The notes beneath the pieces were generated by a model. The model ran no database searches and had not been told where the DNA came from. It saw nothing but the letters and a program-made list of their open reading frames with translations. Positions 6,710 through 10,764 of a DNA stretch of 44,138 bases are shown one piece after another. The stretch comes from Verrucomicrobiia bacterium (GTDB taxonomy: Bacteria > Verrucomicrobiota > Verrucomicrobiia > Limisphaerales > JAYPXF01): NCBI GenBank assembly GCA_016779125.1, contig JADHOF010000004.1, positions 1-44,138 of the forward strand, in the 5' to 3' direction. Made by a program: the position numbers and the translations under genes. The stretch's first letter is position 1. Every line of letters begins with the position of its first letter.

Positions 6710-8950
6710 CTAAGGACTCCCGGCTTGGCGGAGGAGGTAGGCCTTGCGTTCGGGCGGTAGAGGCGTTCGGCTCAGCCACGCTTTAGCCGCCGCGGGGTCG
6801 GAGCGCAGCCAGTTCGCGGCAACTCGTTCAATCTTGTATGTCGTTCCCGCTCCCGGCGGCAGTTGCGAAACCCATGATGCCGCCAATTCCGGATGACTGG
6901 ATTCGGTGGCGCGAACGAACGCCTCGATCGCGCGGTTGCGCGAAGCGCTGTCGGGTAGTTGCTCCAAAAACCGGGATGACGCAACCATGTCCGTTTCCGT
7001 CCACACGCTGACCAGATTTGCCATTCCCTTCGCCCGCGCCTCGCCCTCAGGAAACTGTGTCACCCATGCCGCGGCAGATTCGGGGTCCGAAGCGGCCCAA
7101 CTGCCCACGACTTTCGCGGCATGTTTCTCTTGCTCGGAGCCGGGCGGGAGATTGGAAACCAATGACGCGGCTGATTCCACGGAAGTCATCGCGAGTCCGG
7201 AAATCATGCCGCTGATCGCGTTATCACGCATATCCCGGTTCTCCAAACCTTTCACCCAATCGATCGCCGCGTCGAGATCTTCGCGACTCCATCGTCCGGC
7301 CATGCTGGCGATCGCTGTTTCCTTGTTAGCACCGGACGGCAACGTGTTGATCCAATCCATCGTGGCCGCCGGATCGTGTTTCACCCACTCGGAGGCCACG
7401 GTCTCGATGAGGACTTTTGCTGTGTCCCCGGAAAATCGCTCCACAAACTTGGCCGTGCTCGTCGGCGCATCACGCATGCTAGCGGTTACGATCTCCCTCA
7501 ACGCCTCTCTCCGACCTCTGCTTTCCGGCAAGGCGACGGCCCATTCCCGGGCGGCGACCGGATCTTTGTCGGCCCAACGCTCCGCGATCTCAGTGTAGAG
7601 CGGGTGGAAAATCAGACTTGAGGGCTGCTCGGCCAGCAACTTTGCCGCCGCATCGGGCTGACCCGACTGCACCATTCCATCCAAGACGAGCAACGATGCT
7701 GTCGTCGTGGCGCTGCTTGCGGGCAGCTCACGTAACCATTTCAAGGCGGCTTCCGGGTTCGCGCGCCCCCACTGCGTTGCAACATTGCCGACGAAGCGAT
7801 CTCGTTCCGCCCCGATAGCGAGAGTTTCCGCGAACGCGGCCGCGGCGAGCGGATTCGACTTCGCCCAACGCTCACCCAACGAGGACATGGCCGCGTCTCT
7901 GGCGGTCGAACCGGGGAGATCCCTGAGCCACGCGAAGACGCTATTGGGCTCCCGGTCCGCCCATCCTTTGGCAACGATTCCGACAGCATTCTCCCGCTCG
8001 GTCCCTTTCAATTCGAGAGCCAGTCGAGCGGCGGCTTGGGGATTTGTCTCAACCATGGAACCAAACACGGCGAACAGTGTCGTTCGCGCAACCGCTGGAT
8101 CATGAATCTCCCGCAAGAATCCAAACGCGGCCTCGGGATCCTTTTTCGCCCACACGCGCCCCACAGAGGTGATCGCGGCGGCTCGGCTCTTGCCCGAAGG
8201 CAAACTCAACGCGGCGGCCGAGGCGGACCGGGGATCGATGACACCCCAGTTGGAAAAAATCGCGACCACCTTCTCCACCATCTCGCGAGAGTCGGTGATA
8301 CCCTCCCGCTGTAGCACGACAAAGGCCCTTTGCGGGTCAGGTTCCGCAAGTTCATCGGCGATCGCTGCCGCCAGCGAGGAGCGAATCGCACCCTTGGGCA
8401 GTGTCTGCAAATGTGCCAGTGCTGCCTCAATATCATTCTGCATCCACCGGTTGATGACGCTCGATCGGGCGGAATGTCGGCGAGTCGTCGTCGCCAGACT
8501 ATTCGCGAAGCTCAGCGCGGCCGTCGGGTCCGTGTCGGCCCACAAAGGCATTAAGGCATAGACAATCGAGTAGCCATGCTCCGAGTTCATCGCTCCGCGG
8601 AGCAATTCGCAGAGTTCGGGCACCTGATCGGGCGCAACACCGACGAGCGCGGCTGCAATCGCGGCAGCTTTGATGCCGGTCTTGGTGCTGCTCGAATAGG
8701 CGGCGCGAACCCGTGCAGCCACCTGTTCTACCGACGTTGAGTTCGTATTGGCCGCCGCTGCCTGCGCAACCGCTCGTTCCAAGCTCTTAGGTGGATCGGC
8801 CCGTCGCATTTCGGCCGGCTCAGATGCCTCACTCGGCAGGATCGTTCTCTCCTGCCCTGCTCGAATCCCTAGCCAATAACCGAAAAGCCCGGAAACGAGG
8901 CTACTCAAGACCACAGGCATCGCAAAATAGGAGAGGCTTTTTGAGAACAT
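6710..8950 (-). CDS. Membrane-anchored solenoid protein with ~19 degenerate ~32-aa W(A)xxDPxxAAxW repeats
   Basis: Visible periodicity, e.g. RWADKDPVAAREWAVALPESRGRREALREIV / EWVKHDPAATMDWINTLPSGANKETAIASMAG; N-terminal TM MFSKSLSYFAMPVVLSSLVSGLFGYWLGIRAG; ORF start at 9007 possible, 8950 preferred. Confidence 0.8.
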   Translation of the reverse strand: MFSKSLSYFAMPVVLSSLVSGLFGYWLGIRAGQERTILPSEASEPAEMRRADPPKSLERAVAQAAAANTNSTSVEQVAARVRAAYSSSTKTGIKAAAIAAALVGVAPDQVPELCELLRGAMNSEHGYSIVYALMPLWADTDPTAALSFANSLATTTRRHSARSSVINRWMQNDIEAALAHLQTLPKGAIRSSLAAAIADELAEPDPQRAFVVLQREGITDSREMVEKVVAIFSNWGVIDPRSASAAALSLPSGKSRAAAITSVGRVWAKKDPEAAFGFLREIHDPAVARTTLFAVFGSMVETNPQAAARLALELKGTERENAVGIVAKGWADREPNSVFAWLRDLPGSTARDAAMSSLGERWAKSNPLAAAAFAETLAIGAERDRFVGNVATQWGRANPEAALKWLRELPASSATTTASLLVLDGMVQSGQPDAAAKLLAEQPSSLIFHPLYTEIAERWADKDPVAAREWAVALPESRGRREALREIVTASMRDAPTSTAKFVERFSGDTAKVLIETVASEWVKHDPAATMDWINTLPSGANKETAIASMAGRWSREDLDAAIDWVKGLENRDMRDNAISGMISGLAMTSVESAASLVSNLPPGSEQEKHAAKVVGSWAASDPESAAAWVTQFPEGEARAKGMANLVSVWTETDMVASSRFLEQLPDSASRNRAIEAFVRATESSHPELAASWVSQLPPGAGTTYKIERVAANWLRSDPAAAKAWLSRTPLPPERKAYLLRQAGSP

Positions 8951-9195
8951 TGGGTGGCTACTACAAAAAGGGTTGATAAACCGGAACGACAGCAACGCTT
9001 CCCGCATTTCCTACAGATAGCAAAAGCTATTCCCACGCTTCGGTGTAGTCTTCTTCTATACCATCATCGCCAGAAGCCTGTCGGACTTTTTCCGAGAGCT
9101 TTTGCCAGGTTCTTCGAAAATTCCAGTGGGTGGGCGGGATTCGGATGAGAACAACGTGAGTTGCGTTTGGGACCACGTAGTCGCGGCAGCGTCCT

Positions 9196-9309
9196 GGAGT
9201 GCGCCGTCGCACGGCGCTTTGTGGCGGGAGTCCTGCTCCGAAATTGATCAGTTCGCTTTGCGATCGGCTTTTTGCACGCTCTACAAAGCGGTCTGCGAGA
9301 CCGCACTCC
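9196..9309. repeat. REP/BIME-like pair: two 27-nt hairpin elements in inverted orientation
   Basis: 9196-9222 GGAGT-GCGCCGT-CGC-ACGGCGC-TTTGT; reverse complement of 9283-9309 GGAGT-GCGGTCT-CGC-AGACCGC-TTTGT; 21/27 identical, all six differences form three compensated stem pairs. Confidence 0.7.
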
Positions 9310-9483
9310 TTCAACTCGCGGAGGTCTACCTGTTGATGGAACTGCGCTGTCTACTGAACTGTCGAAGAACCAAAACTCGACCACCGACGCCTTGCGTCCA
9401 CATGCCGGGCACGACAATGAGCCCCCAATCCTCCTGCTCGACAAACGGATTGTGAGCGCGGTGTTTTCCGGTATTCCTTTGGC

Positions 9484-10764
9484 ATGCTTCACAGACCCCT
9501 TCCCTTGCTCGCCGGTGCGGTGCTGCTGTCGTCAATCCTCGACGCCGATTCAGCGGCCACGGACTTCGCCACGCTTCCGATGCTGCAGGGCATTCTCCCC
9601 GGGAAAACGGACTATTATGAAATCGACCAGAAGGTTGGCCTCGCCCCGCCGTATCTCGTGTTTCAGGTGAAGACCACCCATGCCACGTACGAAGTGCAAT
9701 CCGTTCGAAGTCTGCTGAAAACCTGCCACGAGATTCGCGTGATGGAGGAATACAGAAAGACGTCCGAGGGAAACCAGACATGGGCGGGTGCCAAGGATTC
9801 GTTCAAAGACATCGGAGCCGGCGCCACGCTGCTGGTCAAAGATCCCAACGCGGCTCGGAAGGCGATCGGTCGTTCGCTCAGCAAGACAGCCCGCAGCATC
9901 GGCCGCTTCTTTCGCAAGCAGACGCAGGACACTCCCGAACGCAAAAGCAGCGAGGGTCGCGACCGCGATCTCGGTGCCGGTGGCAGGAGCTACGCGAAGA
10001 CAGCCCGCGAATTCGCCCACCGTCTGCAGCTGGACGTTTACACAGACAATCCCTACGCCCGTGCCCTGATCAGCTCAGTTGCGGAGCAGCAGGGTGTTGG
10101 CAAGGCGGCGGTCGGCGTGGCGACGTTCCTCCTCGCCCCCGTGCCGGGGTTGCGCACCGTCACCCGAGGCTCGCTGACTTCGGACGCAATCAATGCAGAG
10201 CGGGAAATCCTAATCGCGGACAACAATCCCGCAGAAATGCGCCATCAGATGAAGAAGAGGTTCCTCGCGAACAACGGGCTGGTGGAAGGTCGGGATACGG
10301 ACCCCATCGCCGCCTACGACGCGTTTCTCTCCAACGGCAATTTCAATCCCCGGCAGGAGGCCTACCTCGATCTCTATCTGGAACTGCTCGGCAACATTTC
10401 CGGACGAACGGAGGCGCTAAAACATCTGGGCGAGATCCAGACGGAAACGGACGCGGACCTGATCGTTTCCCAGTATGAACTTCTGGCCACGATTCACCAA
10501 AAGAAGTCCAAGCTGACCCGCCTCATTCCCTTCGGTGCCAACGTGGGCGGTCTCACCATGGACGATGAACTGCTCTTCGCCTGCCCGTTCGACACGCTCG
10601 CAGAAACCGACTACCTGACGGGCCTCGCGAGGGAACTACAGGCCGCTGCAACCAACGTTGCCGCCAAGAAAACGCGATGGCTGATCTTGGGCGAGGCTGA
10701 CGATTTCTTCCAAGGAATCCCCGTCACCGCAAACCTCCTGCTGGATCCCGAACTAAACAAGTAG
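9484..10764 (+). CDS. Exported protein of unknown function
   Basis: 426-aa ORF with signal-like N-terminus MLHRPLPLLAGAVLLSSILDADSAA and balanced composition; no family recognised. Confidence 0.7.
   Translation: MLHRPLPLLAGAVLLSSILDADSAATDFATLPMLQGILPGKTDYYEIDQKVGLAPPYLVFQVKTTHATYEVQSVRSLLKTCHEIRVMEEYRKTSEGNQTWAGAKDSFKDIGAGATLLVKDPNAARKAIGRSLSKTARSIGRFFRKQTQDTPERKSSEGRDRDLGAGGRSYAKTAREFAHRLQLDVYTDNPYARALISSVAEQQGVGKAAVGVATFLLAPVPGLRTVTRGSLTSDAINAEREILIADNNPAEMRHQMKKRFLANNGLVEGRDTDPIAAYDAFLSNGNFNPRQEAYLDLYLELLGNISGRTEALKHLGEIQTETDADLIVSQYELLATIHQKKSKLTRLIPFGANVGGLTMDDELLFACPFDTLAETDYLTGLARELQAAATNVAAKKTRWLILGEADDFFQGIPVTANLLLDPELNK

Follow-up and report, generated by a model that had tools for sequence, protein, structure and literature searches.

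A tail-to-tail pair of GGAG-tagged hairpins in a Verrucomicrobiia bacterium, very probably a BIME-like member of a Verrucomicrobiota-wide REP family

Between two divergent open reading frames of a Verrucomicrobiia bacterium lie two short hairpins in inverted orientation. Their flanks and loops are the same, and they differ only inside their stems, where both members of each altered base pair have changed. What sort of element is this, and what could keep the stems paired while their sequence changes? A preliminary description, made from a 44,138-nt stretch of DNA (the window), favoured a REP/BIME-like element and kept a structured RNA as the alternative. We have high confidence that the locus is a tail-to-tail REP pair (BIME-like) of a Verrucomicrobiota-wide GGAG family, which would be mobilised by a RAYT of a clade with the motif NHYH where that enzyme is present, and whose members in the window's genome would be relics. 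As the tag is GGAG instead of GTAG or GTGG, this would be a genuine REP/BIME of the kind proposed, differently tagged.

The hairpin pair and its copies in the same genome

Read directly, arm 1 (27 nt, 9196..9222, + strand) is GGAGT-GCGCCGT-CGC-ACGGCGC-TTTGT, that is the GGAG tag and a T, a 7-bp stem, the loop CGC and the tail TTTGT. The reverse complement of arm 2 (27 nt, 9283..9309, − strand) is GGAGT-GCGGTCT-CGC-AGACCGC-TTTGT, with the same parts. The spacer between the tails (9223..9282) is conserved in part among the copies in the same genome. Flanks and loop are identical, and all six differences make up three stem pairs (positions 4–6 and their partners), just as first described. The position of the pair is likewise confirmed: it sits in a 476-bp gap (9008–9483) between divergent ORFs at 6710–9007 (−) and 9484–10764 (+), neither of which has a significant match in Pfam or NCBIfam. 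In predicted DNA folding each arm, taken singly, forms the 7-bp stem with its CGC loop, at −9.5 kcal/mol for arm 1 and −7.7 kcal/mol for arm 2. Shuffled sequences folded equally well in 2 of 200 cases for arm 1 and in 1 of 200 for arm 2. The 146-nt region as a whole is of ordinary stability (z −1.57).

The conserved REP unit is longer than the 27-nt hairpin. Alignments of the copies in the same genome extend it upstream to TCGCGGCAGCGTCCT, which in the window lies 5′ of arm 1 (9181..9195, + strand) and belongs to the order-wide consensus. Arm 2 of the window is without its 5′ flank. Comparison with the copies C178 and C250 shows that it was removed by a 27-nt deletion between two CACTCC direct repeats (deletion site 9309..9310).

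How often does the pair recur? Pattern searching of the genome, a draft assembly of 3.83 Mb that is 81% complete, gave eight exact matches, and these constitute four inverted pairs: that of the window (C294), C178, C250 and C27. There are at least three single hairpins besides. The genome-wide copies that had been looked for are thus present as inverted pairs, but their number is low, a covariance model finding about 10–12 credible hairpins. The GGAG tag is present in both arms of all four pairs, and each pair has one CCGT-type arm and one GTCT-type arm (with GTTT on one side in C178). The compensatory differences therefore distinguish the two kinds of arm in a single heterodimer and did not arise in the window. 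Recurrence of the inverted pair at four places in this genome, together with occurrence of the unit across the order, argues that the pair is not due to chance. The copies C178, C153 (an outer unit discussed below) and C294 are outside ORFs of at least 150 aa.

The repeat across the order and the pairing of its stem

In the order at large, the unit comprises the GGAG tag, a T, a 7-bp GC-rich stem, a loop of 3–4 nt (some copies have a longer one) and a tail of TTT, and upstream of the tag there is a conserved CGCG..AGCGTCYT. Among 97 genomes of the order, a covariance model, one of the checks initially suggested, found the unit GCGTCYTGGAGTGCG-stem-loop-CGCTTT in 81; the exact pattern GCGTCCTGGAGTGCG-N-CGCTTT is present in 13 of the 97 (its reversed control gave one match in total). 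The model scored at most 64 candidates per genome, under stricter filters, and in many relatives the number of matches is at or close to that ceiling. The conserved GGAGT/TTT flanks are therefore not peculiar to the window, other copies with them being present both in its own genome and across the order. A scan of GTDB genomes found at least 118 stretches, and nearly all of the matches listed are from Verrucomicrobiota; also among those listed are a few records labelled Sphingopyxis, Planctomyces, Proteobacteria and similar, which may be mis-binned or chance matches.

Dimers are either tail-to-tail, with heads 86–159 nt apart (mostly 86), or head-to-head, at 25–36 nt. The BIME arrangement of two inverted REPs and a spacer is found, and as is often so for BIMEs and REPINs it can be arrayed (loci L305 and L312). 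In contrast to BIMEs and REPINs, both dimer orientations occur here, and the heterodimer of the window is inside a larger inverted-repeat unit. Sites within ORFs of at least 200 aa account for 66 of 119 (55%) against a background of 85%, which is an intergenic preference and not an exclusive one. [Arrays in L286 (1959–2609, −) and L290 (1891–2280, −) are read as repetitive ORFs with runs of ECASPLALGG, ECGSPLPL and AVPCRF.]

Sites for the analysis of covariation were selected by the conserved head (up to two mismatches) and CGCTTT at a fixed spacing, and pairing of the interior was not demanded. Fully paired stems are present at 171 of the 207 sites, with 82 distinct interiors. For 50 aligned sites, 94.8% of cells are paired in comparison with 77.4% after shuffling, and double-sided changes number 63 against 20 in shuffles, the three outer stem pairs being fixed by site selection and hence uninformative on covariation. 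Neither the observed pairing nor the covariation score was attained in any of 500 shuffles. In the tag region of the same 50 sites the G-G-A near the stem is invariant and the G-T nearly so, the head having been allowed up to two mismatches at selection. To judge from these alignments, the stem of the hairpin is under selection, as the two arms of the window had led one to suppose.

RAYT genes in relatives, and the rival explanations

A search with NCBIfam REP_Tyr_transpos (NF047646) led to RAYTs that adjoin the hairpins in L286, L290 and L293. The clade has the motif NHYH. Its protein matches the NCBIfam model below that model's cut-off, aligns with E. coli TnpA-REP (PDB 4er8, E 6e-6), and has no Pfam match even at E 0.1. 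Of 293 genomes in the order, 70 encode a relative of the L293 RAYT at E≤1e-20. At 30 loci of the clade, GGAGTGCG hairpins are on both sides of the gene in 15 and on one side in 4, and there is none nearby in the other 11; the reversed control tag gave 0. Genomes with an L293-type RAYT (25 of 97) all have at least 12 matches to the covariance model, and the median number of matches is 55 with the gene and 5.5 without it (Fisher p 3e-8, Mann-Whitney p 1e-8, phylogeny being ignored and counts being capped at 64). A RAYT gene between inverted copies of one hairpin is what Nunvar et al. defined as a REPtron (PMC2817692); with the GGAG hairpin, this arrangement is found in relatives and not in the window's own genome. 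The proposal of a REP/BIME-like element is borne out by such flanking hairpins, by the strong covariation of the stems, and by the copies in that genome and throughout the order.

Two other candidates for the mobile partner were rejected. The best Pfam Y1_Tnp matches are mostly IS200-like proteins, and at none of their 40 loci is there an adjoining GGAGTGCG hairpin, so the linkage is limited to one RAYT clade. In public loci, intervals between inverted heads that stand far apart were searched for an autonomous element and none was found, and the 1.57-kb interval in L174 is without a transposase. Other RAYT lineages of the order (L270, L272, L277, L278, L285, L288 and L289) have GGAG-tagged hairpins of different sequence on their flanks, for instance GGAGC-GCCGAGC-ATT-GCTCGGC, so that GGAG tags are not restricted to the GGAGTGCG family. 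[In L271 and L272 the RAYT-like domain is within very long GC-rich open frames (>1,000 aa), which are probably open by chance.]

Does the window's genome have the enzyme? Looking for a RAYT gene elsewhere in it had been suggested as a check. The matching clade is present in relatives, but the sole RAYT detected in the genome itself (G000) is GTAG-flanked and so does not qualify as the partner. A search for relatives of the L293 RAYT at E≤1e-20 found none in G000, which is 81% complete, or in the same-genus G001. The RAYT that G000 does have, C158 (L273 around 1402–2184; L105 1289–1977), is degraded. It groups with GTAG-flanked RAYTs, and is ruled out as the cognate enzyme by the GTAG hairpin adjoining it, GTAGCGCAGGCTTCCAAGCCTGC, and by the one in-frame TAG that has to be read through for its match. 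Without a cognate RAYT, mobilisation in this genome cannot be current, and the REP copies of the window are most likely relics that no longer move, the alternative being that the enzyme is encoded in the 19% of the genome absent from the assembly. Together, the degraded GTAG-flanked RAYT and the stranded GGAG REPs would be the remains of two REP systems in one genome.

The following course of events is envisaged. In genomes that have it, the NHYH-clade RAYT, a single-strand-specific nuclease, would bind the folded hairpin and, with the GGAG tag as guide, would cut beside it and copy or move the unit to new sites, by preference intergenic ones. Selection for a hairpin that the enzyme can bind would maintain pairing of the stem while its sequence drifts. 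In a genome with no detectable cognate RAYT, such as that of the window, the few surviving copies would be immobile, and some of them would be carried on as passengers in an inverted-repeat element of about 290 bp and of another kind.

That element deserves attention, as it provides a different account of the locus. The REP pair of the window is held in a MITE-like inverted-repeat unit of 264 bp (9108..9371; 292 bp in C178 and C250; further copies in L060, at L059 69–360 and at L057 1641–1806), with a left end repeat at 9108..9127 (+) and a right one at 9353..9371 (−). Its ends, GGTTCTTCGA...TCGAAGAACC, are common to four places in the genome (C294, C178, C250 and C153). The hairpin pair could then be just the inner part of a MITE of about 290 bp, one that makes a target duplication of 8 bp and has a DDE transposase as its mover, and its likeness to REPs would be incidental to its mobility. 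The shared ends speak for this, as does the 8-bp repeat TTCAACAC flanking the C178 copy, which looks like a target duplication, and the end-to-end complementarity, which is greater than in every shuffle for C178 and C250. But a target duplication is seen in C178 only, complementarity of the ends is not above shuffles in C294 and C153 (it is in two of the four copies), and the ends, which we take to resemble those of ISL3, have no evident mover, since an ISL3 transposase (PF01610) was sought in the 81% complete assembly and had no match there. In C153 the outer ends are present and the inner hairpin pair is absent. Conversely, C27 carries the pair without the outer ends, which makes the REP pair a passenger of the outer unit, and many relatives have single hairpins with no outer unit. 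Such wide distribution without outer ends largely contradicts a MITE origin for the family as a whole, and we regard it as improbable; the outer unit is best read as reflecting a passenger relationship and not an alternative origin of the REP family. [C250 and C153 have a further stretch of about 60 bp in common, which lies upstream of the outer unit.]

Strong covariation, and GC-rich stems that are followed by TTT, would also suit a structured RNA, or a terminator or attenuator in the divergent gap, where selection on the transcript would preserve the stem. However, the hairpin region has no match in Rfam, no terminator-like or promoter-like site is present in the divergent gap, and the pair is between divergent genes and not at 3′ ends. 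The contexts of the copies are many and unrelated, both orientations occur, and there is the linkage of the hairpins to a RAYT gene. The structured RNA that was initially kept as an alternative is accordingly set aside as very improbable. An equally slight chance is given to a REP of the CGTC type, which Di Nocera et al. (2013) described as having no dedicated transposase. There is a likeness in that these too are hairpin repeats with CGTC upstream (GCGTC in the consensus here), and CGTC REPs are without linked RAYTs (PMC3733652). Yet CGTC is their terminal tag, whereas here it does not adjoin the stem and is 2 nt upstream of GGAG; the stem is without the A-T first pairs given for CGTC families (PMC3733652); and linkage to a dedicated RAYT clade contradicts the absence of a transposase by which those families are defined.

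The GGAG tag and residue 101

A REP pair of a RAYT-linked family is thus the preferred reading, and it remains to place the family among those known. It resembles REPtrons and the GTAG superfamily (Nunvar 2010, PMC2817692; Di Nocera 2013, PMC3733652) in having a tetranucleotide tag 5′ of a short GC-rich hairpin, covarying stems, many copies that are mostly intergenic, inverted dimers, and a RAYT gene flanked by its own hairpins. It differs in the second base of the tag, which is G, in the T between tag and stem, in the long conserved 5′ flank, and in its host phylum, Verrucomicrobiota. By description, the partner RAYT is also like TnpA-Y1 subclass 2.8 and the groups of Bertels (PMC6006769), with an NHYH motif and a Pro-rich N-terminus; for subclass 2.8, however, GT[AG]G REPs and YIHYNP are reported (PMC6006769), against GGAG and YVHQNP or YVHQNA here. 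In the publications consulted, REP tags are GTAG and GTGG or the degenerate GYAG, GYRG, GTRG and GTMG (PMC2817692, PMC3733652). GGAG, which is neither a terminal GTAG nor one of these variants, was not found in the main texts consulted.

Within the order, no RAYT locus mixes GGAG with GTAG or GTGG hairpins under an automatic flank-labelling rule. RAYTs from loci L264–L323 were labelled by tag, four of the GGAG labels (L272, L289, L318 and L320) being given by hand, and a tree of the 38 labelled proteins requires 2 changes of tag, in comparison with a mean of 9 when shuffled. H101 of E. coli TnpA-REP is listed as one of the GTAG-contacting residues (PMC6006769). The residue in the corresponding column, which is blank in the L264 row, is His in all 10 scorable GTAG/GTGG-flanked RAYTs, and in the 28 GGAG-flanked RAYTs it is Thr in 25 and Arg in 3. 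Concordance being complete, the residue was set equal to the tag for the tree test, and there are only two independent contrasts of tag with residue 101, too few for significance. Since H101R is reported in some GTAG-associated RAYT subclasses (PMC6006769), Arg at this position is not diagnostic of GGAG. It is tentatively suggested, with the odds leaning somewhat the other way, that verrucomicrobial RAYTs read both GTAG and GGAG, that residue 101 decides between them (His for GTAG/GTGG, Thr or Arg for GGAG), and, jointly with this, that the switch of tag requires no fewer than two changes on the RAYT tree, a matching change of residue accompanying each of them.

Where might the cut be? For a Marinomonas enzyme the tag guides the choice of cut site, and A3-G4 of GTAG is proposed to select CT (PMC8266576). 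GGAG retains A3-G4, and where the stem meets TTT there is an invariant C|T, so that this junction is a candidate site and the enzyme might reasonably be expected to cut at CT.

An apparently new REP tag class, GGAG, is thereby added, paired with a defined RAYT clade and in a phylum for which little has been written on RAYT biology. One order contains both GTAG-flanked and GGAG-flanked RAYTs, the tag and a residue in contact with it vary in step there, and these natural enzyme/hairpin pairs of both tags make RAYT tag recognition directly testable. If the suggestion about residue 101 is true, the specificity of a single-strand transposase would follow a simple code. For annotation, the family accounts for a very common repeat of Verrucomicrobiota, including the ECGSPLPL and AVPCRF runs in spurious or extended ORFs, and ORFs in its arrays probably give rise to spurious protein annotations in the phylum.
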